NCBI GenBank assembly: GCA_015056865.1
Contig: SVFM01000001.1
Coordinates: 62,001 to 126,000 of the forward strand
Length of the DNA stretch: 64,000 nucleotides
Direction of reading: 5' to 3'
Origin: Lachnospiraceae bacterium
GTDB taxonomy: Bacteria; Bacillota; Clostridia; Lachnospirales; Lachnospiraceae
Part shown: one piece after another, positions 3,317 through 49,096 of the stretch
How the letters are laid out: each line of letters opens with the position of its first letter
Numbering within the stretch: position 1 is the first letter of the stretch
The notes under the pieces: model-generated
What the model was told of the DNA's origin: nothing
Seen by the model: the letters and a program-made list of their open reading frames with translations, nothing else
The model's database searches: none
Program-made: the position numbers and the translations under genes

Positions 3317-4786
3317 ATGCTTTTCAATTCCTATGTTTTCCTGCTTGCCTTTTTGCCGATTGTGTGGCTATTGTACTTTGGGTTTAACAAGTGCAAATGG
3401 TTTCGTGTTGCACAGTTTTCTTTGATTGCGGCATCTTTTGTGTTTTATGGGTATCAGGACTGGCGTCTCTGCCTGCTGCTTGCCGCCAGTATCTGCGTCA
3501 ACTATGGGCTGCATTTGATCTTGGTGCGCCCTGCACTGAGACAGAACATCAGGAAAATGGTCTTGGTGGTTGGTATCTTAAGTAATCTGGGTATTCTTTT
3601 CTATTTTAAATATCTTGATTTTGCCATTGTAAATTTTAATTTCCTGACGGGAAGTGATGTAGCGTTAAGATATATAGCACTTCCTCTTGGAATCAGTTTC
3701 TATACATTTCAGCAGTTATCTTTTGTTGTAGACAGTTATCGCAGGGAAATGGAAAAGTACCGTTTCCTGGATTATGCGCTGTTTGTTTCTTTTTTTCCCC
3801 AATTGGTGGCGGGTCCGATCGTGCTTCACAGCGAAATGGTTCCCCAGTTCGTAGATCGAAACAGAAAAAAGCCTGATTATGAGAGTATGATGGCAGGTAT
3901 GGAGTATCTGATCTGGGGTCTGGCTAAAAAGGTACTCCTTGCGGACAGTTTTGGACGGATGTGGGATGCCGGGACTGTATCTATCAGAGGTCTGAACAGT
4001 TTAAGTGCGGTTGCTGTTATGCTGGCCTATACTCTGGAAATCTATTTTGACTTTAGCGGGTACTGCGATATGGCCATCGGCATAGGAAAGCTGTTTCGCA
4101 TTGATATCCCTATCAACTTTGATTCTCCTTACAAGGCGCGAAATATTGCACAGTTCTGGAAAAAATGGCACATCACACTGCACAGATTTCTCACCACCTA
4201 TCTTTATATACCATTGGGAGGAAACCGCAAGGGAAAGTGGAGAACCTGCCTGAATGTGATGATCGTGTTTACTATAAGTGGTTTGTGGCATGGGGCAGAC
4301 TGGACCTTTGTGGTCTGGGGGATACTCCATGGGAGCATGATAGTCTTATATAGGCTACAGAGAAAAAGAGCAGATGCTTTGCCCGGCTGGCTGTCCTGGC
4401 TACTCACTTTTGGATTTGTCAATGTAGCCTGGCTGTTTTTTGCAGCGCAGGACATGCTGCAGCCTTTTAAGCTAATGTATATGATGGTGCTTGGGGGCTT
4501 TGGTGGATTTACACAAGGGATTGTAAATGCGGTCTGCGAGAAAAATATTCTGGTGGTGTTTTTAGATTACTTTTGCAGTGAGGGGATGATGTCTTTGATC
4601 AACCAGTTGATCACGACAGGTTGGTTTATAGGCGGATTGCTTTTATGTGTGAAGGCACCGTCTACCCATGAAATCGTTGCAGCAAAGCATCGAAGACAGG
4701 GGTATTTTCTGTGGCTGGCCCTGCTTTTTGTCTGGTCTGTCACAAAATTGTCATTGGTGTCCAAATTTATTTACTTTAACTTTTAA
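3317..4786 (+). CDS. MBOAT-family O-acyltransferase (DltB/AlgI/PatA-like)
   Basis: 489 residues, polytopic throughout, with family features in order: MLFNSYVFLLAFLP at the start, LPLGISFYTFQQLSFVVD near residue 135, FFPQLVAGPI near 160, 'NFDSPYKARNIAQFWKKWHITLHRFL' near 260, and the MBOAT histidine in GLWHGADW (His325). MBOAT proteins pass acyl groups, usually acetyl, across the membrane for O-acylation of glycans or teichoic acids. The next gene (5023-6057) encodes a membrane-anchored SGNH protein, so the two form the usual MBOAT-SGNH acylation pair (as PatA/PatB, AlgI/AlgJ, DltB/DltD). The intergenic space between them holds palindrome copy A. Confidence 0.93.
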   Translation: MLFNSYVFLLAFLPIVWLLYFGFNKCKWFRVAQFSLIAASFVFYGYQDWRLCLLLAASICVNYGLHLILVRPALRQNIRKMVLVVGILSNLGILFYFKYLDFAIVNFNFLTGSDVALRYIALPLGISFYTFQQLSFVVDSYRREMEKYRFLDYALFVSFFPQLVAGPIVLHSEMVPQFVDRNRKKPDYESMMAGMEYLIWGLAKKVLLADSFGRMWDAGTVSIRGLNSLSAVAVMLAYTLEIYFDFSGYCDMAIGIGKLFRIDIPINFDSPYKARNIAQFWKKWHITLHRFLTTYLYIPLGGNRKGKWRTCLNVMIVFTISGLWHGADWTFVVWGILHGSMIVLYRLQRKRADALPGWLSWLLTFGFVNVAWLFFAAQDMLQPFKLMYMMVLGGFGGFTQGIVNAVCEKNILVVFLDYFCSEGMMSLINQLITTGWFIGGLLLCVKAPSTHEIVAAKHRRQGYFLWLALLFVWSVTKLSLVSKFIYFNF

Positions 4787-4809
4787 ATATATTGGGGTGA
4801 TTGGGAAAC

Positions 4810-4982
4810 AAAACAGTCCGGGGCGCAGGGCCTGATAGATCGATGGCAGGCCCTTGAAAAACGTCAGCACTTGGATTTTTCAAGCAGATCTGCGCAGAAA
4901 AATCCATAGTACTGTTACGTTTTTCACGGAACGAAAGTGTGCCTGCCATCGATCTATCAGGCCCTGCGCCCCGGACTGTTTT
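4810..4982 (+). repeat. Nested palindromic element, copy A (subtype I core)
   Basis: Arms 4810-4851 and 4941-4982 are a perfect 42-base inverted repeat not shared with the other copies. Between them lies an 89-base core beginning CCTTGAAAAACG and ending with CGTTTTTCA and a small hairpin, CAC GGA AC-GAAA-GT GTG, that has a GNRA tetraloop. Inside the core the helices GGATTTTTC/GAAAAATCC and GCAG/CTGC stack toward a short loop. Outside the perfect arms the palindrome continues imperfectly: the stretch just after the MBOAT stop at 4786 still pairs in part with the stretch before the next gene's ribosome binding site near 5010. There is no T-tract, so it is not a classical terminator. Confidence 0.9.
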
Positions 4983-5022
4983 ATTTCCTGATTGCACAAG
5001 ACATTTAAAAAGGAGGTAGCTC

Positions 5023-6057
5023 ATGACGGAGAAAAAAGCTTTTTATAGTTTGGCCGGATATTTGGCGGGAGCATTGGTGCTGGTAGCTCTGGCAGTATTT
5101 CTGGTGGATCCGTTCTATCATTATCATGATGCCTGGTTTGGTATGCCGGTGGTTTTGGAAAATGCGGTGTATCAGACGCCCGGGGCAGCCAGAAACCTGG
5201 AGTATGATAGTGTGATCGTGGGTACTTCAATGACGGAGAATTTTCATGCCAGCTGGTTTGATGAGGCCATGGGCTGGAAAACGTTAAAATTATCCTATTC
5301 CGGGGCAAGAACGGACGATCTTAAGGCAATCTTGGGACAGATATATTCGAACAGAGAAGCACCTGAAAACATTTTGATGGATGTGAATGCCTATCAGTTG
5401 ACAGTGGATCCGAAAACCGCATATGCCATCAGACCGGAATACTTGTATGATGATAAAATAGTGACAGATACCTCCTACCTGTATAATCAGGATGTGCTTC
5501 TGGCGTCTGTGAATAGAGTTTTGGACGGGCTGCATGGAAGAGAAAGCAATTTGGATGAGGCATATACTTGGGAGGATGAGGTTTATTTTGGCAAAGATCA
5601 AGCGTTGGAAACAGAGAGGAAGACTAGGGGTGGGATGGCCTATGAGCCCATAAGCTTGGAAGTATGTGACCAGAATATAGACAACATTCTGCCCTTTATT
5701 GAGGCACACCCGGAGACCACTTTCTATATTTTTTATCCTCCCTACAGTATGCTGTATTGGGAGCGGGAGATGATAGGGGGAAGCTGGGAAGAGATGCTGT
5801 TTTTATATAAACATTCCATAGAACGCTTTCTGGAATATGAGAATGTGAAGGTTTACTATTTCCAGGATGAAAAGGAGATTATCAGCAATCTGGATAACTA
5901 TCGGGATGCTACTCATCATCGTCCGGAGTACAACAAGTATATTTGTGAATGTATTGCGGCGGGGAAGAATCTTTTGACAAAAGAAAACTATGAAGACCGG
6001 ATTCTGGGCATGTATGAATATGTGCAGAAATTTGATTACGAGGTTTTGTGGAAATAA
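5023..6057 (+). CDS. Membrane-anchored SGNH-type O-acyltransferase partner of MBOAT
   Basis: 344 residues. An N-terminal hydrophobic segment (about 11-29) anchors an extracytoplasmic domain. The nucleophile block is VGTSMTEN with Ser69, and the C-terminal Asp-His pair is DATH (Asp295, His298), the arrangement seen in DltD, AlgJ/X and PatB-like proteins. The family transfers acyl groups delivered by the MBOAT protein onto an external polysaccharide or wall polymer. AGGAGG stands about 8 bases before the ATG. Its neighbour 3317-4786 is the MBOAT partner; the two are separated only by palindrome copy A. The acyl group and the acceptor are not evident from sequence. Confidence 0.85.
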   Translation: MTEKKAFYSLAGYLAGALVLVALAVFLVDPFYHYHDAWFGMPVVLENAVYQTPGAARNLEYDSVIVGTSMTENFHASWFDEAMGWKTLKLSYSGARTDDLKAILGQIYSNREAPENILMDVNAYQLTVDPKTAYAIRPEYLYDDKIVTDTSYLYNQDVLLASVNRVLDGLHGRESNLDEAYTWEDEVYFGKDQALETERKTRGGMAYEPISLEVCDQNIDNILPFIEAHPETTFYIFYPPYSMLYWEREMIGGSWEEMLFLYKHSIERFLEYENVKVYYFQDEKEIISNLDNYRDATHHRPEYNKYICECIAAGKNLLTKENYEDRILGMYEYVQKFDYEVLWK

Positions 6058-6135
6058 AACGGAGTGAGGACGGTCTGCGGTTGCAGGAAACTGGCAAATG
6101 TGGTAAAATGAAATTTATTGCTGGAGGGCCGGTAG

Positions 6136-8917: not shown

Positions 8918-8979
8918 GCTGCCATAGGGAGTCGCTGGCTCACAGGCAATATGGACAGATTTAGGAGAATAAAAAAGTT

Positions 8980-23839: not shown

Positions 23840-23890
23840 GTCGTATGAATGTTTATTTTTCAAAGGATTCTCAGAAAGGATTATACAGTC

Positions 23891-26800
23891 ATGAAGAAAC
23901 TTTTTGGACGAAAGTCTGAAGCCTATAATGAAGAACTGGAAATGGAGGACTTGGAGTACGATGAATATTCTGACGAATACTCTGAAGAGGAGTATGAAGA
24001 GTATGCGGAAGAGGACGAGTACTTTGAGGATGCAGAGTTCGTAGAAGAAACATATGAGGATCAGGAGTATTATGCCGAGGATGATGGACAGGCTGTATAC
24101 TACGAGGACGAGATATATTACGAAGAGGAACTGGAGTTTGATGACCAGGATACGGTTTACCCGGAGGATGATGAGGAAGATGAGGATTCCCACGGGTTCT
24201 GGTACGGATTGACCCATATGGGACTTATGGATCGTGTCATCATGTTTACCGGTGTGATGGTACTGGCCCTTGCATTGATCGTAGGTGGAGTTTATTTCAG
24301 CGCACGGATCTGGAATGAACAGGTATCCTCCTTTGATTCTGTGGGAAATCAGCTGACCGGGATCACCATGATCGGAGAAACCGGACTGATGGCAGTTGCA
24401 GATGCGGAAGAAGCCAGGATAAATGCTGCAAATAATGCAGATAAAGAAGAGGACAAAGAGTATAACGAGAATGATTATGATAAACAAGTGACGGTAGCTA
24501 TGAATACGACTTCCGTTCAGAAAGATCTGAAGGTGAAATTCGTAAATGAGCGTACCAACAAGCTGATCGGAAATGTGCCGTTTGCGGTGGAGGTGACCAA
24601 CCCCAGCGGTAAGAAGGAAATCTGGACAGATGATGATATGGACGGTATCGTCTATAAGAAGGAGATTGCCGCCGGTAAATACGTGGTGACCCTGCAGAGT
24701 CTGGAGGATGAGAAATACGAGAAGTACGTGATATCCGGCAGCGGCAAGAATGTGACGGTAAAGGATAAGATTGTCTATGAGAAGGTAGAGGTGGAGGACG
24801 AGATCAAGGATGAGTCCGAGGTCAACGCGAAAGAGGAGGATACCGCTCAAAAGGACGTGGTAGTGGAGTCCACCTTGAAGGATACTGTGGTATGGGTAGA
24901 ATCCACCAAGAATACGGATTATATGGCAGTACCCAAGAGCAGTATCAAGGATCCTGCGGTAACTGCCAGTGTGGGAACTGTATTCCTGCGCTTGTCCGGA
25001 TATACCATCAGCGGGGATGCCCAGGGAACAGATACAGTTACCCTGACTCCTACCAGACCCACTGGGACCTATACCGGCTATAGGTTAGAGGAAACGTGGA
25101 GAAGTGGCAGTGATCAGCTTGCTACAGTTACCATGAATGAATCCACAAAGGCCGGCGTGGTGACTGCCAAAGGCGCCGGAGCAGTGACGATCACCTACTC
25201 CTATGCATGGGTACAGGAAGAAGGTGTCAGTACCGGAGATGTGGTGCCCACAACCATGCAGGGGCAGCAGACTTGGAATCTGACCATTCAGTCGGCAGCT
25301 CCTACGCCTTCTGTAACATTGGATAAAAACACTTTGAGCCTGGAAGTGGGTAAAACATATAAGTTAATTGCGACTGTTGTTCCGGAGGGATCGGCGATTA
25401 CCTGGACAACGGATGATAAGGATATTGCTACCGTAGCGGCAGACGGAACTGTAACAGCGGTTGGGCAGGGAACCACAATGATTTCCGCCAGCACGGATCA
25501 GGCTGCAGTGGCTACCTGTATGATAAACGTAACAGCCCCGGCTACGCCTATTACAGCGGTTACTCTTTCTAAGAACACGCTGGCAATTGATCTGTCCGGC
25601 GAGGTAAAGACGGGAGAGCTGACAGCAACAGTAACCGGTACGGGAGAATTCAGCAAGGAAGTGACCTGGAAATCCTCCGATGAGAGCATTGCCAAGGTAA
25701 CTGTGGATGAGACGGGAAAGGCCATCGTAACAGGATTAAAAGCAGGTACCGCAACGATCACTGTGACATCTAAAGCAGATGAGACAAAGTTTGCTTCCTG
25801 TACGGTGACGGTAACAGGCAAGTCTAACACTCCTATTTCAGAGATCACCCTTTCGAAAGAAGAGTTGACCATTGATATGCTTACCGGTAAAGTGACTGCA
25901 GAACTGACAGCAACAGTGACCGGTACCGGAGAATTCAGTAAGGAAGTAACTTGGAAGTCCTCTGATGAAAAAATTGTAAAGGTAACTGTGGATGAGACCG
26001 GTAAAGCAACATTGACCGCTGTGAAGGCGGGAGAAGCAACGATTACCGTAACTTCCAAAGTGGATGAGACCAAATTCGCCACTTGTGCGGTAAAGGTGAC
26101 AGGAGAAGCTGTTACTGCACTTGTTCTGGAGGAGACAGAGGTGAAGGTGCCTGTGTTTACCAAGCTGGAACTGAAAGCCAAGACCACTCCGGAGGGTGGT
26201 AAGATCGTTTGGACTTCAGATAAGAAAGAAATTGCAACGGTAGACGAAAAGGGCGTTGTGACGGGCGTGAAGGAAGGTACTGCAGTGATCACTGCTACCT
26301 GTGGAACCCTGACTGCAAAATGTACCGTGAAGGTTACCAAGCTGATGACCCTCGATAAGATCACACTTACGGTGATCGTGGGAGGAGAAGGAACCGTCAA
26401 GGTAACTGTGGCCGATGACGGAAAGGGTAAGGTAACGGCAGCTTCAGCAGATACCAGCGCGGTAACCGTAAGTGTAAAGGATAATGTGGTTACATACAAG
26501 GGCATTTCCGCCAAGAATTCTGTTGGTACCACCATTGCATATACAACCGCTACAGGACAGATCGTTTATCAGGATGTGATGGTCAGCGTAGTTTCCAATA
26601 CGGATAAGCTGAAAAATAACAAAGGTCAGGTGCTTTACGTGAAGAATGCCGAGGGCAAGTATGTGGAAGCTGCAGCCTCCGACTATTATAAATACGATAC
26701 CTTCTATCTGCCTTACACCAAGTATACAGGCTGGCAGACGATCAATGGAAAGGTTTACTTCTATAATGTGGACGGCAAGGCGGTAACCGGTACGCAGGTC

Positions 26801-27448
26801 ATTCAGGGAGCAGAGTATACTTTTGCGGCGGATGGCAGCTTGATGACCGGAAGTGGTGTTATGGGTATTGACGTTTCCAAGTGGAACGGCACTATTGATT
26901 GGAATGCGGTAAAGAATTCGGGTGTATCCTATGTGATCATCCGATGCGGTTATCGAGGATCTTCCAACGGTTCGTTGATCATAGATCCTAAGTACCATAC
27001 CAATATCAAGGGAGCCACAGCGGCGGGGCTGAAGGTCGGTGTCTATTTCTTCAGTCAGGCATTGGATGAGATAGAGGCGGTGGAAGAGGCTTCCATGGTG
27101 CTCAGCCTGATCAAGGATTATAAGATATCCTATCCGGTATTTTTGGATGTGGAGAGCAGCGGCGGCCGGGCAGATAAGATTGACAGTACTACCCGGACCA
27201 AGGTGATCAAGGCCTTTTGTGAGACCATAGAGAAGGAAGGTTACACGGCTGGTGTATATGCCAACAAGACTTGGTTGGAGAAGAAGATGGATGCGGTGCA
27301 GCTTGAAAAATATGTGATTTGGCTGGCACAGTATGCAGCAGAACCTACTTATACGAAAACAAGATATGATATATGGCAGTATAAGGATACCGGAAAGGTG
27401 AGCGGTATCAGCGGTAAGGTGGATCTGAATCTGAGCTATTGGGAATAA
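23891..27448 (+). CDS. Membrane-anchored Big_2-domain protein with C-terminal GH25 lysozyme domain
   Basis: 1185 residues from ATG 23891 (AGAAAGGA upstream; the in-frame ATG at 23849 lies only ten bases after the -10 and has no ribosome binding site). Order: a cytoplasmic tail very rich in Glu, Asp and Tyr (about 10-100); one membrane segment (about 115-138); a linker and an unassigned region with a Cna_B-like look (about 205-285); Big_2-type Ig-like repeats (about 473-820), two of them nearly identical; a short glucan/choline-binding-like repeat region with GWQTINGKVYFYNVDGKAV (about 945-965); and a GH25 muramidase-like domain (about 991-1185) with MGIDVSKWNGTIDW and the acidic FLDVE motif. 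It should cleave or bind peptidoglycan outside the cell. Placement amid glycan genes suggests wall remodelling during polymer attachment. Confidence 0.9.
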   Translation: MKKLFGRKSEAYNEELEMEDLEYDEYSDEYSEEEYEEYAEEDEYFEDAEFVEETYEDQEYYAEDDGQAVYYEDEIYYEEELEFDDQDTVYPEDDEEDEDSHGFWYGLTHMGLMDRVIMFTGVMVLALALIVGGVYFSARIWNEQVSSFDSVGNQLTGITMIGETGLMAVADAEEARINAANNADKEEDKEYNENDYDKQVTVAMNTTSVQKDLKVKFVNERTNKLIGNVPFAVEVTNPSGKKEIWTDDDMDGIVYKKEIAAGKYVVTLQSLEDEKYEKYVISGSGKNVTVKDKIVYEKVEVEDEIKDESEVNAKEEDTAQKDVVVESTLKDTVVWVESTKNTDYMAVPKSSIKDPAVTASVGTVFLRLSGYTISGDAQGTDTVTLTPTRPTGTYTGYRLEETWRSGSDQLATVTMNESTKAGVVTAKGAGAVTITYSYAWVQEEGVSTGDVVPTTMQGQQTWNLTIQSAAPTPSVTLDKNTLSLEVGKTYKLIATVVPEGSAITWTTDDKDIATVAADGTVTAVGQGTTMISASTDQAAVATCMINVTAPATPITAVTLSKNTLAIDLSGEVKTGELTATVTGTGEFSKEVTWKSSDESIAKVTVDETGKAIVTGLKAGTATITVTSKADETKFASCTVTVTGKSNTPISEITLSKEELTIDMLTGKVTAELTATVTGTGEFSKEVTWKSSDEKIVKVTVDETGKATLTAVKAGEATITVTSKVDETKFATCAVKVTGEAVTALVLEETEVKVPVFTKLELKAKTTPEGGKIVWTSDKKEIATVDEKGVVTGVKEGTAVITATCGTLTAKCTVKVTKLMTLDKITLTVIVGGEGTVKVTVADDGKGKVTAASADTSAVTVSVKDNVVTYKGISAKNSVGTTIAYTTATGQIVYQDVMVSVVSNTDKLKNNKGQVLYVKNAEGKYVEAAASDYYKYDTFYLPYTKYTGWQTINGKVYFYNVDGKAVTGTQVIQGAEYTFAADGSLMTGSGVMGIDVSKWNGTIDWNAVKNSGVSYVIIRCGYRGSSNGSLIIDPKYHTNIKGATAAGLKVGVYFFSQALDEIEAVEEASMVLSLIKDYKISYPVFLDVESSGGRADKIDSTTRTKVIKAFCETIEKEGYTAGVYANKTWLEKKMDAVQLEKYVIWLAQYAAEPTYTKTRYDIWQYKDTGKVSGISGKVDLNLSYWE
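25553..26104 (+). repeat. Tandem near-identical Big_2 repeats inside the GH25 protein gene
   Basis: Two consecutive units of about 92 codons, starting near 25553 and 25838, share long identical stretches in protein (TGTGEFSKEVTWKSSDE, KVTVDETGKA, ATITVTSK, DETKFA). Earlier and later Big_2 units are more diverged, so this pair looks like a recent internal duplication. Confidence 0.85.
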
Positions 27449-27478
27449 TCTACATAAAGCGAGAGAATGGAGAAAAGT

Positions 27479-28561
27479 ATGAGAACCTATCTGGTAACAG
27501 GCGGCGCCGGATTTATCGGCTCTAACTACATTCATTATATGTTTAAAAAGTATGGGGAGGAGATTCGTATCATCAATGTGGATGCACTCACCTATGCAGG
27601 CAATCTGGAAAACCTGAAGGATGTTGCAGACAGGCAGAATTACACCTTCGTGAAGGCTGATATCTGTGACAAAGAGGCCATTCGCAAGGTATTTGCGGAA
27701 AATGACATTGACAGGGTGGTGCATTTTGCAGCGGAAAGCCATGTGGATCGAAGCATCCGTAATCCTGAGGTGTTTGTTCAGACCAACGTGCTGGGCACTT
27801 TGGTTATGCTTAACTGCGCAAAGGAGGCCTGGGAACTGCCGGACGGCAGCTTTAAGGAAGGGAAAAAATTTCTGCATGTTTCCACAGATGAGGTGTATGG
27901 TTCCCTGCCGGAGGATGAAAATGCCTTCTTTTACGAGACTACGCCTTATGATCCCCACAGCCCTTATTCTGCCAGCAAGGCCAGTTCCGATATGCTGGTA
28001 AAATCCTATATGGATACCTATAAGTTCCCAGCTAACATTACGAATTGCTCCAACAATTACGGCCCCTATCAGTTTCCGGAGAAATTTATTCCCCTGGTGA
28101 TCAACAATGCCCTTCAGGGGAAGAAGCTGCCGGTTTATGGGGATGGCAAGAATGTGCGTGACTGGTTGTACGTGGAAGACCACGCGAAGGCCATAGATAT
28201 GGTGCAGGAGCAGGGCCGGCTGTTTGAAACCTACAATGTGGGTGGCCACAACGAAAAGCAGAACATCGAAATTCTCCACATCATTCTGGATACGCTGCAG
28301 GAGTTGTTGCCCCCGTCAGATCCCAGAAAGACATGGATCAATGAGGAACTGATCACTTATGTGACAGACCGCAAGGGCCATGACCGCAGGTACGCCATTG
28401 CTCCGGATAAGATCAAGGCGGAGATTGGCTGGGAACCGGAGACCATGTTTAAGGAAGGAATCCGAAAGACCATAAAGTGGTACTTTGAGCATGAGGACTG
28501 GATGCAGAACGTGACCAGTGGAGACTACCAGAAGTATTACAACGAAATGTATGAAAAATAA
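27479..28561 (+). CDS. rfbB: dTDP-glucose 4,6-dehydratase
   Basis: 360 residues from ATG 27479, where GGAG at 27469-27472 is well spaced; an in-frame ATG at 27467 has a weaker site. It is an NAD-dependent short-chain dehydrogenase of the extended type: TGGAGFIGSNY (residues 7-17), HFAAESHVDRS near 80, and the catalytic YSASK with Tyr163 and Lys167. It converts dTDP-glucose to dTDP-4-keto-6-deoxyglucose, the shared substrate of RfbC and the WecE-type aminotransferase. Palindrome copy B separates it from rfbA. Confidence 0.96.
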   Translation: MRTYLVTGGAGFIGSNYIHYMFKKYGEEIRIINVDALTYAGNLENLKDVADRQNYTFVKADICDKEAIRKVFAENDIDRVVHFAAESHVDRSIRNPEVFVQTNVLGTLVMLNCAKEAWELPDGSFKEGKKFLHVSTDEVYGSLPEDENAFFYETTPYDPHSPYSASKASSDMLVKSYMDTYKFPANITNCSNNYGPYQFPEKFIPLVINNALQGKKLPVYGDGKNVRDWLYVEDHAKAIDMVQEQGRLFETYNVGGHNEKQNIEILHIILDTLQELLPPSDPRKTWINEELITYVTDRKGHDRRYAIAPDKIKAEIGWEPETMFKEGIRKTIKWYFEHEDWMQNVTSGDYQKYYNEMYEK

Positions 28562-28636
28562 ACTATGATGGGGACGGCAGGACACCGTTCCCATTCGTTG
28601 ATGAATCCTGTAGATGAAATTGAGTGTAAAATAAGG

Positions 28637-28792
28637 CTGAGGCACCGGAGCTTATGTTTTAATAAAAGGCCCTTGAAAAACCTCAGCACTTGAATTTTCC
28701 AAGCAGTTCTGCGCTGGAAAATTCTTAGTACTGCTAGGTTTTTCACGGAGCGAAAGCGTGCCTGAATTAAAACATAAGCTCCGGTGCCTCAG
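28637..28792 (+). repeat. Nested palindromic element, copy B (subtype I core)
   Basis: Perfect 27-base arms 28637-28663 and 28766-28792 with a sequence unique to this locus. The core between them carries the same design as copy A but with swapped pairs: AAAAACC/GGTTTTT in place of AAAAACG/CGTTTTT, and GAATTTTCC/GGAAAATTC in place of GGATTTTTC/GAAAAATCC. The 3' hairpin GC-GAAA-GC is present. Outside the perfect arms, 28598-28636 still pairs imperfectly with 28793-28832 (for example TTGATGAATCCTGT against ACAGCATTCCTCAA), so nearly the whole intergenic region is one quasi-palindrome. No T-tract. Confidence 0.9.
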
Positions 28793-28845
28793 GCTTCTTT
28801 CGCTCCCGATTTTATCACAGCATTCCTCAAAGAAAGGAGACTATT

Positions 28846-29715
28846 ATGAAGGGTATTATTTTGGCGGGAGGTTCGGGAACACGGCTGTACCCGCTTACCA
28901 AGGCAATCTCTAAGCAGATCATGCCGGTGTATGACAAGCCCATGATCTATTATCCGCTTTCCACATTGATGCTGGCAGGGATCCGGGAGATACTGATCAT
29001 CTCCACACCCAGGGATCTGCCTGTATTTCAGGAACTTTTGGGGGATGGCAGTCAGCTTGGCATGGAGTTATCCTATGCGGTGCAGGAGTATCCCAGAGGG
29101 CTGGCGGATGCGTTTCTCATCGGCGAGCAGTTTATCGGCCATGACAGGGTTGCCCTGGTGCTGGGGGATAATATCTTTTACGGACAGAGCTTTTCTAAGG
29201 TTTTGCAAAAAGTGGCAGCCAGAGAAAAGGGTGCGACCATCTTCGGCTATTATGTGAGGGATCCCAGAGAGTACGGTGTGGTGGAATTTGATGAAAACGG
29301 CAGGGCCATTTCTATTGAGGAAAAGCCGGAGCATCCTAAGAGCAACTACGCGGTGCCGGGACTGTATTTTTATGACAATGATGTGGTGGAGATTGCGAAA
29401 AATGTAAAGCCCTCCGCTCGCGGCGAGATTGAGATTACCAGTATCAATAACGAGTATTTGCAGCGGGGAAGTCTGCAGGTGGAGACTCTGGGAAGAGGCT
29501 TTGCGTGGTTGGATACAGGCAGTCATGATACCCTTTTGGATGCCGCCGATTTTGTGGCAGCCTTCCAGAAAAGGCAGGGACTTTACATCTCCTGCATCGA
29601 GGAGATCGCGTTTAGACGGGGCTTTATTAACAGGGAGCAGCTGTTAAAGCTGGCAGAGCCTTTGATGAAGACCAATTACGGAAAATATCTGGTAGAGGTT
29701 GCAAACGGCCTCTGA
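28846..29715 (+). CDS. rfbA: Glucose-1-phosphate thymidylyltransferase
   Basis: 289 residues, the usual length. [18 protein letters not shown] is the nucleotidyltransferase signature, with [17 protein letters not shown] next and the VLGDNIFYG loop near residue 105. It makes dTDP-glucose from dTTP and glucose 1-phosphate, which PgcA (38.98 kb) provides. AAAGGAG stands 8 bases before the ATG. rfbC follows 24 bases downstream. Confidence 0.97.
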
Positions 29716-36736: not shown

Positions 36737-38695
36737 ATGGATTATAAAGAGGCATATGAAAAAGAACATTTGAAAAATGCGGATCTGGCAGGCCGGATCG
36801 CAGATCTGGAAGCAAAGAACGAGGAGCTGGAGTTTAAGCTTGGCCGCATTAAGAACAATCCCTTGTGGAAGGTCAGCAAGCCGGCGCGCAGCGCCGTTCA
36901 TTATGTGCTGCGGCAAAAGGAGCGCCTGGCAAACTGCGGCGGACCTAAGGGTGTGGTAGCCAAGCTGGGATACAAAAAGCGGGAAAAGCAGGCCATGAAG
37001 CAATTTGGCACGGACAGCTTTCCGGATGAGGAGCAAAGAAAGCTGGAGCGGGAAAGTGTCTTTCCCCGCATGGTCAAGATCAGTATTCTGGTCCCTTTAT
37101 GGAACAATCGCAGGGAGTTTCAGGTGGAGATGCTGGAATGCATCATGAATCAGACCTACCAGAACTGGGAGCTTTGTCTGGCGGACGGTTCCGATGCGGA
37201 GCATGCTTATATAGAAGAGATCTGCAGGGAGTATGCGGCCAAGGCCGATGGCCGTATCGTATATCGGAAGCTGGAAAAAAATCTGGGCATTGCAGGCAAT
37301 ACCAATGAGTGCCTGAAGCTGGCTACCGGGGAATATATCGGCCTGTTTGATCAGGACGACATTTTACATCCTTCCGCCTTGTATGAGTATGTGAAGGCCA
37401 TCAATGAAAAGGACGCGGATTATCTGTACTGCGACGAGACTACCTTTAAGGGCGGGGATATCAATAAGATGCTGACCATGCATTTTAAACCGGATTATGC
37501 GCCGGATAATCTGCGGGCCAACAATTATATCTGTCATTTCAGCGTGTTTGCCAGAACGCTGCTGGAGGGAACAGAGTTGTTTCGCTCTAAATTTGACGGC
37601 AGCCAGGATCACGACATGATCCTGCGGCTGACGGACAATGCAAAGAAGGTGGTGCATGTGCCCAGACTTTTGTATTATTGGAGAAGTCACTCAGGCAGTG
37701 TGGCCTCCGGCATTCAGGCCAAGCCCTACGCTATTGAGGGAGCCAGAGGTGCGGTGGCAGATCATCTGCGGCATCACAGTTTTGAGAATTTTAAGATTGA
37801 AAGCACCAAGGCCTTTGCCACCATCTTTCGGATCCGGTATCAGATCCTGGGCAATCCCAAGATATCCATCGTGATCCCCAACAAGGATCATGTGGAGGAT
37901 CTGCGAAGATGTGTAAGCTCCATCCTGGAGAAATCCACTTATGACAATTATGAGATTCTGGTGGTGGAAAACAACAGTCAAACTTCGGAAATCCTTGCCT
38001 GCTATCAGGAATTGCAGGAGAAGCATGGGGACAAAATAAAGATAGTGACCTATGAGGGAAGTTTTAACTACTCGGCCATCAACAACCTGGGCATCCGTCA
38101 TGCCACGGGAGAGTATATTGTACTTTTGAACAATGACACAGAGGTGATCACAGTCAATTGGCTGGAGGAATTGCTCATGTATGCCCAGAGACAGGATGTG
38201 GGTGCAGTGGGAGCCAAACTCTACTACGGTGACAAGACCATCCAGCACGCCGGGGTAGTGATCGGCCTGGGGGCTCACAGGACCGCGGGACATACCCATT
38301 ACAAGCAGCCAAGGCAGAATCTGGGCTACATGGGCAGGCTTTGTTATGCCCAGAATGTGACGGCAGTTACCGGTGCCTGTCTGATGGTAAAAAAATCCCT
38401 GTATGAGGCGGTTGGCGGCCTGGATGAGGAGTTTGCAGTTTCCTTAAATGATGTAGATCTGTGTCTGAAGCTGCGCCGGGCGGGATATCTGAATGTGTTT
38501 ACTCCTTTTGCAGAGCTGTATCACTACGAATCCATTTCCAGGGGACTGGATGATCAGGGCGAGAAGGCAGCCCGCTATGAAAAGGAGTCAGAACGCTTCC
38601 GGGAGAAATGGAAGGAGCAGCTGCAGCAGGGGGATCCCTACTACAACCCTAACTTTTCTTTGGACAGAAGTGATTTTTCTTTAAAAATAAACTAA
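36737..38695 (+). CDS. Dual-domain GT2 glycosyltransferase with N-terminal coiled coil
   Basis: 652 residues. A short coiled coil (about 10-35, LAGRIADLEAKNEELEFKL) ends in NNPLWKVSKPAR, a motif common in clostridial glycan transferases. GT2 domain 1 (about 113-340) has ISILVPLWNN and FDQDD; domain 2 (about 374-600) has ISIVIPNKDH, VVENNS and LNNDTEV. The pairing suggests a processive or two-linkage polymerase for the exported chain. It ends just upstream of palindrome copy C. Confidence 0.9.
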   Translation: MDYKEAYEKEHLKNADLAGRIADLEAKNEELEFKLGRIKNNPLWKVSKPARSAVHYVLRQKERLANCGGPKGVVAKLGYKKREKQAMKQFGTDSFPDEEQRKLERESVFPRMVKISILVPLWNNRREFQVEMLECIMNQTYQNWELCLADGSDAEHAYIEEICREYAAKADGRIVYRKLEKNLGIAGNTNECLKLATGEYIGLFDQDDILHPSALYEYVKAINEKDADYLYCDETTFKGGDINKMLTMHFKPDYAPDNLRANNYICHFSVFARTLLEGTELFRSKFDGSQDHDMILRLTDNAKKVVHVPRLLYYWRSHSGSVASGIQAKPYAIEGARGAVADHLRHHSFENFKIESTKAFATIFRIRYQILGNPKISIVIPNKDHVEDLRRCVSSILEKSTYDNYEILVVENNSQTSEILACYQELQEKHGDKIKIVTYEGSFNYSAINNLGIRHATGEYIVLLNNDTEVITVNWLEELLMYAQRQDVGAVGAKLYYGDKTIQHAGVVIGLGAHRTAGHTHYKQPRQNLGYMGRLCYAQNVTAVTGACLMVKKSLYEAVGGLDEEFAVSLNDVDLCLKLRRAGYLNVFTPFAELYHYESISRGLDDQGEKAARYEKESERFREKWKEQLQQGDPYYNPNFSLDRSDFSLKIN

Positions 38696-38708
38696 GGTTT
38701 GATATAAT
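38680..38708 (+). promoter_or_regulatory. Weak candidate promoter upstream of palindrome copy C
   Basis: TTTAAA (38680-38685), a 17-base spacer and a perfect TATAAT (38703-38708) overlap the end of the dual GT2 gene. A start site about 7 bases further on would lie at the outer edge of palindrome C, making the whole element the 5' leader of the phosphoglucomutase mRNA. The -35 is poor. Confidence 0.35.
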
Positions 38709-38718
38709 AAACGTACAG

Positions 38719-38950
38719 TAAAGTGTCATAGTACCAAGGGAAGACTTTTATTTCCCCGCCGGCAGCCCACAGGTCTCCAGGAAGGACCCTTGAAAAACGC
38801 CGGTGCTTAACGAGCTCAGGTACAGCGCATAGTGCTGTGCCGCGAGTTTAGCATCCGCTGCGTTTTTCACGGAGCGAGAGCGCGTCCGAATGAGACCTGT
38901 GGGCTGCCGATGGGGAGATAAAAATCTTCCCTTGGTGCCATGATACTTTA
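38719..38950 (+). repeat. Nested palindromic element, copy C (subtype II core)
   Basis: Arms 38719-38777 and 38892-38950 match at 52 of 59 positions, and all seven differences are transitions; four of them would still pair as G-U in RNA. The core is subtype II: CCCTTGAAAAACG at the start, an inner GGTACAGC/GCTGTGCC hairpin, then CGTTTTTCACGG and a GC-GAGA-GC tetraloop hairpin. The inner part differs in sequence from copies A, B and D but folds to the same design. The arms fill nearly all the space between the dual GT2 gene and pgcA. Confidence 0.88.
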
Positions 38951-38980
38951 TAGTACTAATTATTCAAGGAGATGGTGTGA

Positions 38981-40702
38981 ATGAGTTATAAGGAGCAATT
39001 TGATTTTTGGCTGGAAAGTGATTATTTTGATCAGGATACAAAAGAGGAGCTTTTAGCGATCCGTGACAATGAAAAGGAAATCGAGGATCGTTTTTACAAG
39101 GATCTGGAGTTTGGCACAGGAGGCCTTAGAGGCATTATCGGTGCGGGAACCAACCGGATGAATTTTTACACAGTAAGAAAGGCTACCCAGGGGCTGGCCA
39201 ATTATATTTTAAAACAGGGCGGCGGGGAAAAAGGGGTTGCCATTGCCTACGATTCCAGACGCATGTCTCCCGAGTTTGCTGATACGGCGGCTTTGTGTCT
39301 GGCGGCCAATGGGATCAAGGCCTATGTGTTTGATGCCCTGCGTCCCACTCCGGAATTGTCCTTTGCCCTGCGCAGGCTGGGATGCATTTCCGGTATTGTG
39401 GTAACGGCAAGCCACAATCCTCCGGAATACAACGGGTATAAGGTGTATTGGGAGGATGGTGCCCAGGTGACTGCTCCCAAGGATAAAGAGATCATTGAGG
39501 AAGTAAATGCTATTACGGATTATAATCTGGTAAAGACCATGGATAAGGAGACTGCTGTCAGTCACGGGCTCTATCAGGTGATCGGTCAGGACATCGACGA
39601 TGCCTATATGGCAGAGCTGAAAAAGCAGATCATTCATCCGGAGGTGATTGCCCGGGTGGCAGGGGAGATGAAGATCGTGTACACCCCTTTGTGTGGCACC
39701 GGTAATGTGCCTGTAAGGCGGGTGCTTTCAGAACTTGGCTTTACCAATGTCTATGTGGTGCCTGAGCAGGAGAATCCGGATCCCGAGTTTACTACCCTGG
39801 ATTATCCCAACCCGGAGGATCCCAAGGCCTTTACTTATGCTTTGAGATTGGCAAAGGAGAAGGATGCGGATATCGTGCTTGCCACGGATCCGGATGCAGA
39901 CCGTCTGGGCGTATATGCTAAGGACACAAAGACCGGACAGTATGTTCCTTTTACCGGCAATATGTCCGGTATGCTGCTGGCAGAATATATTTTGAGAGAA
40001 AAGACTGCAACAGGTACCATGCCGGAGGATCCGGCGCTGGTAACCACCATTGTAACCACCAACATGACCCAGCCTATCACCCGGGCTTACGGGGTAAAGC
40101 TGATCGAGGTACTCACCGGCTTTAAGTTTATCGGTGAGCAGATCAAGCTGTTTGAGCAGACCGGCTGTAACAACTACGTGTTTGGCCTGGAGGAGAGTTA
40201 TGGATGTCTGGTGGGTACCCATGCCAGGGATAAAGATGCCATTGCGGCAGTGATGTGTCTGTGCGAGGTGGCAGCATATTGCAAGGATCAGGGAAAGACC
40301 CTGTGGGATATGATGCTGGAAATGTACGAGAAGTATGGTTACTACAAAGAGGGACAGTACACCATTACCTTAAAGGGCGTAGACGGCTCCAGACAGATTG
40401 CACAGATCATGAACAAGCTGCGGGAAAATCCCCCCAAGGCCTTCGGAGATCTGCAGGTGCTTCGGTTCCGGGATTATCAGACCGGCAAGGTGCTTGATAT
40501 GACGACCGGGAAAGAAGGAACCACGGGGCTGCCGAAATCCAATGTGCTTTATTTCGAACTGCCGGATGACTTTTGGTGTTGTGTTCGTCCCTCCGGCACA
40601 GAGCCTAAGATCAAGTTCTACATTGGAGTAAAGGGCAGCGGCCTTGAAGATGCACAGGAAAAAATGGAGAAGCTCACAGAAGATATTAAAGCCAATGTAT
40701 AG
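38981..40702 (+). CDS. pgcA: Phosphoglucomutase (PgcA-type alpha-D-phosphohexomutase)
   Basis: 573 residues, the expected length. The phosphoserine loop is VVTASHNPPEYNGYKVYW with Ser144; the metal loop DPDADRLG is near residue 305; the sugar-binding GLEESYGCL near 405 and the C-terminal phosphate-binding RPSGTEPKIKFY complete the four-domain enzyme. It interconverts glucose 6-phosphate and glucose 1-phosphate, feeding RfbA and UDP-glucose synthesis. AAGGAG lies about 10 bases before the ATG, after palindrome copy C. The next GT2 gene starts only 3 bases after its stop. Confidence 0.95.
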   Translation: MSYKEQFDFWLESDYFDQDTKEELLAIRDNEKEIEDRFYKDLEFGTGGLRGIIGAGTNRMNFYTVRKATQGLANYILKQGGGEKGVAIAYDSRRMSPEFADTAALCLAANGIKAYVFDALRPTPELSFALRRLGCISGIVVTASHNPPEYNGYKVYWEDGAQVTAPKDKEIIEEVNAITDYNLVKTMDKETAVSHGLYQVIGQDIDDAYMAELKKQIIHPEVIARVAGEMKIVYTPLCGTGNVPVRRVLSELGFTNVYVVPEQENPDPEFTTLDYPNPEDPKAFTYALRLAKEKDADIVLATDPDADRLGVYAKDTKTGQYVPFTGNMSGMLLAEYILREKTATGTMPEDPALVTTIVTTNMTQPITRAYGVKLIEVLTGFKFIGEQIKLFEQTGCNNYVFGLEESYGCLVGTHARDKDAIAAVMCLCEVAAYCKDQGKTLWDMMLEMYEKYGYYKEGQYTITLKGVDGSRQIAQIMNKLRENPPKAFGDLQVLRFRDYQTGKVLDMTTGKEGTTGLPKSNVLYFELPDDFWCCVRPSGTEPKIKFYIGVKGSGLEDAQEKMEKLTEDIKANV

Positions 40703-43013: not shown

Positions 43014-43058
43014 TAATTGCTTTTAAAAGCCCAGATTTTGCCACAGGGTAAAATTCAG

Positions 43059-43087: not shown

Positions 43088-43118
43088 ACTGGGTAGATGT
43101 GTAAACTGGGTGGCGTGT

Positions 43119-44531: not shown

Positions 44532-44570
44532 AACATATGTGGGAGAACATAAACGTAAGGAGAAAAAATC

Positions 44571-45758: not shown

Positions 45759-45835
45759 TAAGCGCTACAAAGTGATTTCTGCCGCCGTGCCGGGTATGCC
45801 ATACCAGGTACAGGCGGCAAACGCGCTTAGCGCAG

Positions 45836-45863
45836 AGAATTTCGCAAAGCGAAATTCTTTTTT
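45836..45863 (+). terminator. Rho-independent terminator after the LCP gene
   Basis: AGAATTTCGC (45836-45845), loop AAA, GCGAAATTCT (45849-45858), then a run of T. Upstream (45781-45818) a second, imperfect hairpin begins with GCCGCC and ends with GGCGGC. This marks the end of the main export operon; the next GT2 gene starts 29 bases later. Confidence 0.85.
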
Positions 45864-45891
45864 ATAGTAGAAATAAATGGAGAAAAGCAGC

Positions 45892-46839
45892 ATGTATTCA
45901 ATTGATGTGATCATTCCTACATACAAGCCGGACAAGTCCTTTCTGGAATTGGTAGAGCGCCTGTGCACACAGACTTTGCCTGTTAACCGGATCATTGTCA
46001 TGAATACGGAAGAAAAATATTATGAGGAATTGATTTACGGATCGAAAATCTCGGAAAAATATAAAGAGAAGGTGCAAGTGCATCATCTATCCAAAAGAGA
46101 GTTTGATCATGGTGGGACCCGGCATATGGCCGTAAAGAAATCTCAGACAGATGTATTTGTGATGATGACCCAGGACGCTATGCCTGTGGATGAACATTTG
46201 CTGGAGAACCTGATAGCACCATTGGAAGAGGAAGGCTGTGCCGTTTCCTATGCAAGACAGCTGCCCGGTCCGGACTGTGGCATGTTGGAGCAGATTACCC
46301 GGGAGTTTAATTATCCTGCCCAGTCCCACATACAGTCAGCGGAGCAGCTGGCACAGAAGGGTATCAAAACGTATTTTTGCTCCAATGTATGTGCAGCATA
46401 CAAAAGAAAGATATATGATGAATCAGGTGGATTTATCAGACATACTATTTTTAATGAGGATATGATCTATGCGGCCGGTGCCGTGAAGTCAGGTTATCAT
46501 ATTGCCTACGCTGCCAAGGCCCAGGTTTATCATTCCCACAGCTATACAAACGGACAGCAGTTTCGGCGCAACTTTGACCTGGGGGTGTCTCAGGCACAGA
46601 ATCCGCAGGTGTTTGCAGGCGTATCTTCTGAAAAGGAAGGGAAACGCATGGTAAAGACAGCGGCCGGTCGGTTGAGGAAGGCACGTCGGTGGAGAGAACT
46701 TCTGCATTTTTATGTGCAATGCTTTTGGAAGTATACAGGATATCTTATGGGTAAACACTACCGCAGGCTGCCACGCAGACTGGTTTTGAAATGCACCATG
46801 AGCCCTGGTTATTTTAAGGGAAGCGGGTGCCGGTCTTGA
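45892..46839 (+). CDS. GT2 glycosyltransferase (rhamnosyltransferase-like)
   Basis: 315 residues from ATG 45892, with GGAG at 45879-45882; the in-frame ATG at 45877 has no good site. It begins SIDVIIPTYKPDKSFLELV, has SKREFDHGGTRHMAV and VMMTQDAMPV (the family's replacement of DxD), and FNEDMIYAAGAVKSGYHIAY in the acceptor half. This set is usual in rhamnosyltransferases of Gram-positive surface glycans, but the sugar is not certain. It follows the terminator and its stop is just before palindrome copy D. Confidence 0.88.
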   Translation: MYSIDVIIPTYKPDKSFLELVERLCTQTLPVNRIIVMNTEEKYYEELIYGSKISEKYKEKVQVHHLSKREFDHGGTRHMAVKKSQTDVFVMMTQDAMPVDEHLLENLIAPLEEEGCAVSYARQLPGPDCGMLEQITREFNYPAQSHIQSAEQLAQKGIKTYFCSNVCAAYKRKIYDESGGFIRHTIFNEDMIYAAGAVKSGYHIAYAAKAQVYHSHSYTNGQQFRRNFDLGVSQAQNPQVFAGVSSEKEGKRMVKTAAGRLRKARRWRELLHFYVQCFWKYTGYLMGKHYRRLPRRLVLKCTMSPGYFKGSGCRS

Positions 46840-46842
46840 CAA

Positions 46843-46951
46843 AGGCACGCTCTCGCTCCTTGAAAAACGTCAGTACTTGAATTTTTCAAGTAGGCTTACG
46901 CCGAAAAATTCTTAGTACTGCTACGTTTTTTCATGGAGCGAAAGCGTGCCT
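46843..46951 (+). repeat. Nested palindromic element, copy D (subtype I core, no locus-specific arms)
   Basis: The core (CTTGAAAAACG ... CGTTTTTTCATGG, inner GAATTTTTC/GAAAAATTC, tip GTA/TAC, 3' GC-GAAA-GC hairpin) matches copies A and B. Here the left side AGGCACGCTCTCGCTCC (46843-46859) pairs 16 of 17 with the core's own 3' end GGAGCGAAAGCGTGCCT (46935-46951), and no long unique arms follow. The left edge is 3 bases from the GT2 stop. The tip change GCAG/CTGC to GTAG/TTAC keeps most pairs. Confidence 0.85.
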
Positions 46952-47026
46952 GAACAGTTCTCTCAGGCCCCTACAGCTCAAACAGCAGAATTTCTCAAAC
47001 ATTATTTTAAGAAAGGAAAACATCAT

Positions 47027-48853
47027 ATGTGCGGTATCGTTGGTTACATCGGAGGAAAGCAGGCGGCTCCCATCCTATTGGACGGGTTGTCCAGGCTGGA
47101 ATACAGAGGATACGATTCTGCAGGAATGGCGGTTTTTGATGGGGTCAAAATTCATGTTTGCAAAGCAGCAGGCAGGCTTAGGATTTTGGAGAATCTGACC
47201 CAAGGGGGAGAGGCCATGCCCGGTCATGCAGGGATTGGGCATACCAGATGGGCAACCCACGGACTGCCAAATGATATAAACTCTCATCCCCACCTGAATC
47301 GGGAGGGGACCATTGCACTGGTGCACAATGGTATTATTGAAAACTATATTGTGCTCAAGCAGAAGTTGCTGAATAAGGGTTATGAATTTTGTTCCCAGAC
47401 GGACACGGAAGTGCTTGCACATTTGTTGGATTACTATTATAGAGGAAATCCTCTGGAGGCTATCACCAAGGTGTTGCACCGGGTAGAAGGTTCTTATGCG
47501 CTGGGGATCATGTTTGCGGATTTTCCCGGTGAGATTTATGCGGTCCGTAAAGACAGTCCTTTGATCGTGGGACACAATGAGGACGGATGTTTTATCGCAT
47601 CAGATGTGCCGGCCATATTGAAACACACCAGAAAGGTATACTATGTAGACAATCAGGAGATCGTGAAACTGTATACCGATCAGATACAGTTTTACACTGT
47701 GGACGGGGAGGAACTGGTCAAGGAGCCCACTGTCATAGGCTGGGATATGAATGCAGCCGAGAAGTCCGGCTACGAACATTTTATGCTCAAAGAAATCTAT
47801 GAGCAGCCTGCAACTGTAGCCGATACTGTTTCTCCCAGAATCAAGGATCATGATATTGTCATTGAAGAACTGGACATGACAGAGGAAGAGCTGCAAGGGA
47901 TTAGTAGAATCCACATTGTGGCCTGCGGCTCCGCTTATCACGCCGGAGTGACCGCAAAATACGTAATAGAAGATTTGGCCAGAGTACCGGTGGAGGTGGA
48001 TCTGGCGTCTGAATTTCGCTATCGCAACCCTATTCTGGAGCCGGATTCCTTGGTAGTGGTTGTCAGTCAGTCGGGAGAGACTGCGGATACGCTGGCCGCT
48101 CTTCGAGAGGCAAAGGCCAGGGGGGTTAAGATATTAGGGATTGTAAATGTGGTGGGAAGTTCCATTGCCAGAGAGGCAGACTGTGTAATGTATACCTGGG
48201 CAGGACCGGAGATTGCGGTCGCCACCACTAAGGCATACAGTGCCCAGCTGGTGGCATTGTACCTGCTGGCCATTCGTCTGGGAAGAGCCCGGGGTACCAT
48301 AGATGATGGGCTGCTTGGGAGTTTGCTGACAGATCTCCGCAGACTGCCGGAGCAGATCAGAATGTTACTGGGACAAAAGGAAAAGATACAGCGGTTTGCC
48401 AATCGCTATGTAGGGGCAAAGGATATTTTCTTTATCGGCAGAGGGATCGATTATGCCATTTCTCTGGAAGGATCCCTAAAGCTAAAAGAAATTTCCTATA
48501 TTCACTCCGAAGGTTATGCAGCAGGAGAACTGAAACACGGAACCATTTCCCTGATTGAAGAGGGGACTCTGGTGGTGGCCATTTCCACCCAGCCAAGGCT
48601 GTACCAGAAAACCATCAGTAATATTGTAGAGGTGAAGTCCCGAGGTGCCTTTGTTCTGGCCCTTACCGGTGAGGATAACAAAGAGATGGAAAAGGTTGGG
48701 GATTATGTGCTCTATATTCCAAAGACCAATCCCTACTTTGTCAATTCATTGGCCATCGTTCCCTTGCAACTCTTTGGTTACTATGTGGCCGTGGGCAGGG
48801 GGTGCGATGTAGATAAGCCCAGAAACCTGGCAAAATCTGTGACAGTAGAATAA
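47027..48853 (+). CDS. glmS: Glutamine-fructose-6-phosphate aminotransferase
   Basis: 608 residues, the standard length, from ATG 47027 so that Cys2 (MCGIVGYIGG) is the N-terminal nucleophile of the glutaminase domain; the frame is open upstream to 46946 but a start there would bury the cysteine. ATHGLPNDINSHPH and the two SIS domains (CGSAYHAGVTAKYV, VVSQSGETADT, LKLKEISYIHSEGYAAGELKHG) follow. It makes glucosamine 6-phosphate for peptidoglycan and amino-sugar glycans. AGAAAGGA precedes the start. No glmS ribozyme is visible; copy D lies in its place. Confidence 0.97.
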   Translation: MCGIVGYIGGKQAAPILLDGLSRLEYRGYDSAGMAVFDGVKIHVCKAAGRLRILENLTQGGEAMPGHAGIGHTRWATHGLPNDINSHPHLNREGTIALVHNGIIENYIVLKQKLLNKGYEFCSQTDTEVLAHLLDYYYRGNPLEAITKVLHRVEGSYALGIMFADFPGEIYAVRKDSPLIVGHNEDGCFIASDVPAILKHTRKVYYVDNQEIVKLYTDQIQFYTVDGEELVKEPTVIGWDMNAAEKSGYEHFMLKEIYEQPATVADTVSPRIKDHDIVIEELDMTEEELQGISRIHIVACGSAYHAGVTAKYVIEDLARVPVEVDLASEFRYRNPILEPDSLVVVVSQSGETADTLAALREAKARGVKILGIVNVVGSSIAREADCVMYTWAGPEIAVATTKAYSAQLVALYLLAIRLGRARGTIDDGLLGSLLTDLRRLPEQIRMLLGQKEKIQRFANRYVGAKDIFFIGRGIDYAISLEGSLKLKEISYIHSEGYAAGELKHGTISLIEEGTLVVAISTQPRLYQKTISNIVEVKSRGAFVLALTGEDNKEMEKVGDYVLYIPKTNPYFVNSLAIVPLQLFGYYVAVGRGCDVDKPRNLAKSVTVE

Positions 48854-48854
48854 G

Positions 48855-49096
48855 AAATACCTTACTCCCGGGCAGGTGCATATCTGCCACCCTAGCCTTC
48901 CCCCGGCGGCCCCTTGCAATATAGGACCCTTGAAAGACGCCGGTGCTTGACGAGGTCAGGCAAAATGAAGGCGTTTTGTCTCGAGTCTAGCATCCGTTGC
49001 GTCTTTCACGGAGCGAAAGCGTGTCCTATATTGCAAGGGGCCGCCGGGGGAAGGCTAGGGCGACTGATATGGTTTCTGCCCAGAAGTAAGATATTT
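48855..49096 (+). repeat. Nested palindromic element, copy E (subtype II core)
   Basis: Perfect 38-base arms 48890-48927 and 49023-49060, continuing imperfectly outward to about 48855 and 49096 (AAATACCTTACT against AGTAAGATATTT matches 11 of 12). The core is subtype II with compensatory changes relative to copy C: GAAAGACG/CGTCTTTC for AAAAACG/CGTTTTT, and GGCAAAAT/GTTTTGTC for GGTACAGC/GCTGTGCC. The GC-GAAA-GC hairpin is intact. It begins 2 bases after the glmS stop. The remaining 100 bases before the HtrA gene are AT-rich and hold no gene I can see; a TATACT at 49142 has no good -35 partner. Confidence 0.9.

Follow-up and report, generated by a model that had tools for sequence, protein, structure and literature searches.

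Palindromic intergenic repeats of Lachnospiraceae with private arms and a folded core that appears to be under selection

We analysed a window of 64,000 nucleotides (nt) from a Lachnospiraceae bacterium (GenBank assembly GCA_015056865.1, contig SVFM01000001.1; C38:62001-126000 of its 2.53 Mb genome, here called G000), in which a first-pass annotation had pointed out five structured intergenic elements, A to E. We consider it probable (about 0.66) that they belong to a family of non-autonomous, mobile palindromic repeats in which a folded single-strand core is under selection and template switching during replication keeps the two arms paired. In the mechanism we propose, the folded core, read on one strand (as single-stranded DNA at replication, or as RNA), would be the recognised part, and the arms would only hold the palindrome. 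The elements would spread in bursts by means of a trans-acting enzyme and then stay. The core would be kept in place by purifying selection, probably binding a host factor or otherwise acting locally in either orientation, and the arms would drift almost neutrally, a replication template switch copying one arm into the other so that the two remain largely complementary. Mobility of a non-autonomous palindrome would explain the spread and the bursts, and purifying selection would explain that old copies keep their core and not their arms. Both halves are needed, because conservation in place is not expected of a purely selfish element, nor bursts of a purely host one. The parts of this mechanism that we infer are protein recognition, the single-strand form and a host function.

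A covariance model built from the five window copies (R1) was searched on the whole of G000 with E-values up to 10. The results showed 78 matches, which came to 50 distinct places, a few of them truncated, once antisense matches to the same hairpins had been taken out (loci L009-L058). The model recovered all five window copies on the + strand, where they had first been placed, and 45 other places, the best with an E-value of 9e-25; the motif CTTGAAAAACG alone occurred 31 times, against 6 times for its reversed control. Read 5' to 3', the core begins with a few arm pairs, CC and a lower stem whose sequence is free (in A, AAAAACG/CGTTTTT), continues with a short stem around CGGTAC/GTACCG that has a conserved 2-nt bulge (CT) on its 3' side and a conserved TT/TA internal loop, and ends with an upper hairpin of free sequence, a GAGCGNRAGCG mini-hairpin and the return into the arm. 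Its fold is a long imperfect hairpin with conserved bulges, a GNRA mini-hairpin and a three-way junction. The GNRA loop was present in all 50 copies (L050, out of register by one base in the script, has GAAA by eye) and in register in 101 of 103 copies family-wide, the remaining two being out of register. Outside the core, 49 of the 50 copies carry a further inverted repeat of 26-90 nt, the sequence of which varies from copy to copy; the one copy without it is window copy D (L027), and at L056 a gap separates it from the core. Arm scores were 16-62 for the 49 real right flanks and 7 for D, against maxima of 9-13 for 50 shuffled flanks. The full palindrome measures 151-284 nt in these 49 copies; the first-pass annotation made the elements about half as long as they are. 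By the overlap rule applied, no G000 copy overlaps a predicted gene. An extra small hairpin (AAAGTCATGC...GCATGACTT) stands near the TT internal loop of the core at four loci of another genome, G017 (L075, L266, L285 and L287).

Conservation in place was assessed in G341 and G612. These are congeneric species whose flanking coding DNA is 93.7% alike and which have ten element sites in common among 13 and 12 matches. Core identity was 98.2% (759/773) at nine sites, without L400/L397, and 96.0% (825/859) over all ten. At the same nine sites, coding DNA was 93.3% identical (p = 8e-10) and other noncoding DNA 87.4% (1839/2103; p = 1e-22), gaps being left out of these identities, which flatters the noncoding figure. 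The arms over the ten sites were 88.9% identical at 0-25 nt and 84.3% at 25-50 nt. Homogenisation of cores by conversion between copies was rejected, because core paralogs within G341 are on average 70.7% and at most 82.8% identical, while eight of the ten orthologs reach 96.5-100%. Cores with both neighbours opposite in sense were also conserved (L382, 86/86; L384, 85/86; L401, 84/85), L388 less so (81/86). Among the single core pair changes between orthologs, six involve G.U and one A.C. Given this conservation in place, a binding factor is worth looking for.

The compensatory paired changes described at first are real, with a double change in 14 of 36 consensus pairs among the five window copies (RNAalifold), and comparison of the cores bore out the two subtypes as well. 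The covariation extends to further homologues. In an alignment of 102 distinct copies (A5, L027 left out), 33 of the 36 pairs show double changes, and 92.1% of cells are paired, against 69.7% after shuffling (0/500) and at most 50.7% when the alignment is slid. Covariation beyond column composition and alignment-shift controls is what a structured RNA class would give, and template switching can yield the same. We compared the kinds of mismatch in 79 copies from five sets, one armless copy being dropped. L052 and L056-L058 were left out of this count and of the arm-similarity and pair-change analyses, and a motif and flank rule reduced 20 loci of Eisenbergiella tayi to 18 rows and six copies of genome G217 to 4 rows. 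In the arms, G.U and A.C were similar (139 and 120; p = 0.26), as were purine and pyrimidine mismatches (63 and 48; p = 0.18); such a lack of strand preference is expected for pairing made at the DNA level. In the core, G.U exceeded A.C (71 against 24; p = 1.5e-6). The family-wide alignment gave G.U 41 against A.C 16 over helices 1-4 and 6, and 64 purine-purine against 14 pyrimidine mismatches in helix 3, the lower stem of P2. The core thus appears, from these sequence counts, to be selected as one folded strand. The earlier suggestion of selection on a folded RNA finds support only as selection on a folded strand and only in the core, where the GNRA loop, the G.U excess and sister-species conservation above that of coding DNA agree; it finds none in the outer arms, for whose pairing template switching is the better explanation. 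Covariation of the arms would be poor evidence for RNA, since their mismatches are strand-symmetric and some copies have apparently been rewritten by template switching. The family offers a natural test of whether covariation proves a functional RNA, with arms that covary without strand bias and a core whose structure is strand-specific.

Arm similarity between copies was then set against complementarity to the own partner arm, 20-50 nt out. The own partner was closer in E. tayi (0.94 against 0.52), in G000 subtype 1 (0.85 against 0.45) and in G229 (0.69 against 0.48), whereas G217 showed no difference (0.86 against 0.87). The asymmetric core looks rewritten as a complement in three of the 50 G000 copies, namely L032, where the bulge and the internal loop are gone, L027 (window copy D) and L058, a truncated copy. 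Core pair differences in G229, taken over 58 close sequence pairs, were 48 double and no single ones, these comparisons not being independent; single pair changes do occur in E. tayi and G000. In PMC8794818, template switching is proposed for RNA stems with multi-base compensatory changes that lack observed intermediates. The hairpins described there resemble ours in multi-base compensatory changes attributed to replication template switching; that paper deals with RNA genes, whereas we propose the process for dispersed intergenic palindromes. We infer that template switching is the main force on arm pairing. Because it can make paired changes, such changes in palindromes of this kind are weak evidence for RNA; the bulges and the GNRA branch persist although template switching would erase them, which argues for selection. 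The idea that the arms are newly made from target DNA at insertion was weakened, as the arms of different copies can be aligned in part in E. tayi, G017, G217 and G000, to some extent by eye. They are thus inherited at least in part, with an outermost part that is possibly newly formed.

A family of mobile hairpins was the other reading offered at first, and it agrees with about 50 dispersed intergenic copies in G000, near-identical copies at unrelated sites elsewhere and an empty site in relatives. At site D, all seven relatives that have both neighbours in order (coding identity at most 75%) lack the element, and their gap is about 18-50 nt (lengths by eye), against 187 nt in G000. In G217, six copies, four complete on both sides and two truncated on one side where the contig ends, agree in core and arms as far as a shared end (GTAACAGTTCAGCC / GGCTGAACTGTTAC, a few differences) and lie in unrelated flanks; the palindrome there moves as a whole. 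Twelve copies in G229 have cores 97% alike. Near-identical dispersed copies, together with the element-free site D, indicate insertion. G017 and G022 have a different common outer end, close to AGGYRWTTGCGAAAC.

Several further arrangements were seen. Locus L378 of G252 (C21:12100-13250) holds three head-to-tail copies with a spacing of 187 base pairs (bp). At L272-L275, G022 has core-less palindromes of 74-85 bp with the outer ends of full elements, which may be empty precursors or deletion products. These suggested insertion into the tips of existing hairpins, a candidate we did not keep, as deletion might explain them just as well. Some elements (L079, L106, L135 and L302) sit in another outer inverted repeat related by eye to CAATGTCATTAAGTTAA, and are possibly nested palindrome families. 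An autonomous partner gene between close copies was rejected, because the genes on C25, C34, C1 and C21 look metabolic or housekeeping by eye.

A number of results weigh against mobility with core selection and template switching. The transposase domain Y1_Tnp (PF01797) was not found in the copy-rich genomes G017, G012 and G022, nor in G018, G013 and G074, with the limit that completeness is 87% for G017 and 73% each for G012 and G074, where a Y1 gene may have been missed; it is present in 10 of 27 genomes, G000 among them. DDE_3 was found in two of the 27 genomes (G001 and G006), and not in G000 or G017. On these grounds Y1/RAYT and IS630 partners are weak candidates. A target duplication was not demonstrable, TA standing on both sides in 4 of 14 measured elements. 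Correction between arms is not visible in the inner 20 nt of G217, where the own partner is no better than that of another copy (0.875 against 0.867). The G229 arms differ at about half of the positions 20-50 nt out, although their cores are so alike, which is faster than neutral drift alone predicts. Rewritten cores are rare, amounting to the three already named in G000, and the same motif scan of other loci found none. The G.U excess of the core leans on related copies (32 against 24 in G000 alone), and purine and pyrimidine mismatches of the core were 12 and 16 in the same count set. The ortholog test covers a single species pair, in which one locus of the ten, L400/L397, did not show conservation, with a core identity of 66/86 and four double, three single and nine unpaired changes; either another copy has taken its place or template switches were clustered there. 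The few rewritten cores and this one misfit lead us to hold the reading slightly less firmly.

The evidence for a folded strand raises the question of RNA, and here orientation matters. The five window copies do have the sense of the genes around them, as first reported, but this does not extend to the 50 genome copies, whose flanking gene pairs are ++ in 22, -- in 13, -+ in 12 and +- in 3 cases. Over 118 copies (50 of G000, 56 of other records and 12 of G341), the pairs were ++ 53, -- 35, -+ 18 and +- 12; 63 of 71 aligned genome copies had entered this count, 8 near a locus end being omitted, and 7 of them and 1 of G341 were then lost at edges. The downstream gene was co-oriented in 71 of 118 (p = 0.03) and the upstream gene in 65 (p = 0.31), with p = 0.07 for ++ against --. 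Because orientation is mixed in the larger set, the co-orientation in the window is mostly a small-sample effect, and a weak sense bias may exist. Of 63 copies, 22 had promoter-like sites on their sense side and 15 on their antisense side, and a dedicated promoter was rejected. A structured regulatory or trans-acting RNA, transcribed by read-through, with its three-way junction and GNRA loop serving as a processing site, an mRNA stabiliser or a small RNA and spread and kept for that reason, would account for the near-universal GNRA loop, the G.U excess in core and orthologs (six to one), the purine-purine mismatches of the lower P2 stem and the conservation in place. We regard it as unlikely. 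Neither a consistent gene orientation nor an own promoter was found in the 118 and 63 copies, which speaks against a simple role in cis on mRNA; the core is conserved in antisense settings too, and some strongly polymorphic core pairs lack a G.U intermediate (A5 columns 27/159: UA 53, CG 49, no other). With so little pattern in orientation and promoters, the single-strand core is somewhat more likely to act as DNA than as RNA, which the GNRA loop and the G.U pairs keep open. A replication strand bias in strain CE91-St56 was also rejected, 16 of 25 copies listed (31 matches) lying against the fork, which is not significant in this hand count with the origin assumed at the record start.

Bidirectional intrinsic terminators or insulators between transcription units would fit long GC-rich intergenic hairpins, some followed by T-rich stretches (by eye). 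We think this very unlikely, given that convergent gaps hold only 12 of the 118 copies against 88 for co-directional pairs, that a terminator needs neither conserved bulges nor a GNRA loop and that no regular T tract stands beside the core (by eye). Still a little less likely is a retro-mobile RNA, the transcript of which would fold back on the core and prime its own reverse transcription, so that the second arm would be an error-prone copy of the first. It would explain arms that are private yet complementary and that diverge outward in E. tayi and G229 while the cores are much more alike; but the G217 copies have ordinary inherited arms with unshared mismatches, and ortholog arms behave like neutral DNA. 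We give the least credence to repeats of the REP/REPIN type moved by a RAYT (Y1) transposase. REP/REPIN and RAYT (TnpA-REP) systems (PMC3116915, PMC8266576, PMC3733652) share with our family intergenic position, a palindromic form, dozens of copies and sometimes pairs of opposite orientation, and divergent pairs occur here in genomes such as G017. A REP unit is a palindrome of 20-40 bp (PMC3733652), whereas ours are nested palindromes of 151-284 nt with a three-way junction and a GNRA mini-hairpin, and Y1 was not found in the six genomes named above. REP sequences carry a conserved tetranucleotide at one end of the palindrome; no constant short tag was seen by eye outside our core. Returning to a mobile palindrome with a selected core, we tentatively consider a more specific form of it, which is possible but short of probable: the core would be a dispersed, host-functional single-strand module (single-stranded DNA folded at the fork, or RNA) that works as a structural site independently of orientation, arrives as a mobile palindrome, is kept more strictly than coding DNA and has a dedicated binding factor in Lachnospiraceae.

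The family is apparently undescribed. The first-pass annotation had not recognised a known family, and Rfam release 15 gave no match at the gathering threshold in the window; at a relaxed E-value, the matches of seven loci were limited to two families and lay far below threshold, MIR162_2 with 42.2 bits (threshold 103) and mir-5881 with 24.8 bits (threshold 87). No description of the repeats was found in the literature searched, and the motif may be listed unnamed among the microbiome RNA candidates in the supplement of PMC8040213. The Correia, RUP and ERIC repeats, which resemble miniature inverted-repeat transposable elements (MITEs; review PMC2229807), are likewise short, non-autonomous and intergenic. 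A MITE-like common outer end exists within some lineages (that of G217, and the one in G017/G022), but here the centre and not the ends is best conserved, and the ends differ between lineages. An IS630-type MITE would have terminal inverted repeats with a TA duplication and go with a DDE_3 transposase; neither a target duplication nor an IS630-type transposase could be linked to our elements. The MRSC-65-2 motif, as described in PMC11109978, is also a covarying structured repeat with dozens of copies per genome and is possibly relevant as DNA. By that description it consists of one long stem that carries UYCCGG and occurs in diverse phyla, whereas our family has a three-way junction and other conserved motifs and was found in one bacterial family.

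With R1, matches were found in 15 of 24 further genomes of the genus and in none of 16 taken from the order's other families. A second covariance model (R2), built from 103 copies, detected the repeats in 119 of 299 sampled Lachnospiraceae genomes, that is in 118 of 298 genera (about 40%), and in 8 of 291 genomes of a class-wide sample, all eight in Lachnospiraceae; in both R2 scans 14 candidates were scored per genome, so that copy numbers are lower bounds and weak families can escape. E. tayi DSM 26961 gave 134 matches, with 104 distinct places among the matches listed, CE91-St56 gave 31 and M. catenae 26, all of which may take in antisense matches of the same hairpin. A pattern scan of public genomes returned at least 120 stretches. 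Most of the 80 listed carry the name Lachnospiraceae or genus names such as Eisenbergiella, Butyrivibrio, Pseudobutyrivibrio, Mediterraneibacter and Robinsoniella, which we take to belong to that family, and two of the 80 (L096 and L122) look like chance. As far as sampled, and with family assignment inferred from record titles, the repeats are confined to Lachnospiraceae. They occur in about two fifths of the genera sampled in this family, which is dominant in gut and rumen, with more than 100 places in some genomes. Carriage by viruses or plasmids was rejected, because 11 pattern matches on viral contigs lacked the hairpin and blastn searches, one element being compared with plasmids and one with phages, had no match.

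Long near-perfect palindromes are usually unstable, which makes their coexistence with SbcD-like genes surprising. Such genes were found in 23 of 25 genomes at an E-value of 1e-5, 15 of them above the curated cut-off, including E. tayi and G000; in that search, copy-rich G022 had none and G017 sub-threshold matches only. In G138 at least five of the 104 places listed, and in G217 seven of 14, are no more than 300 bases away from the end of a contig. Palindromes may break assemblies, so that copy numbers may be underestimated.

The five window copies all lie on the + strand, and in A, B, C and E the core is enclosed by a further inverted repeat, 70-80 nt long and private to the copy. In element A (4781-5010, subtype 1; L010), arms of about 70 nt, complementary in 61 of 70 aligned columns, bear the core (4847-4945) at their tip; the element lies between open reading frames (ORFs) 3317-4786 and 5023-6057. 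Element B (28591-28837, subtype 1; L009; core 28666-28764) has arms of about 72 nt, complementary in 60 of 73 columns, and lies between ORFs 27467-28561 and 28846-29715. Element C (38699-38967, subtype 2; L038; core 38783-38888) has arms of about 78 nt, complementary in 66 of 79 columns, and is flanked by ORFs 36737-38695 and 38981-40702. Element E (48855-49096, subtype 2; L034; core 48923-49027) has arms of about 72 nt, complementary in 63 of 73 columns, and its 242 bases match their own reverse strand at 73% (BLAST). Element D (46844-46952, core 46853-46952) is a rearranged copy of subtype 1 without long private arms, with an arm score of 7.0 under a shuffled maximum of 11.5. Its 5' side, 46844-46859, complements with one mismatch the strand 46935-46950 of the copy's own GNRA mini-hairpin, and D folds without the side hairpin.

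Apart from the elements, the window contains two direct repeats of 210 nt, 25609-25818 and 25894-26103, which are 76% identical and lie within ORF 23849-27448 (1199 amino acids). As a guess, they are perhaps repeated domains of a surface protein.

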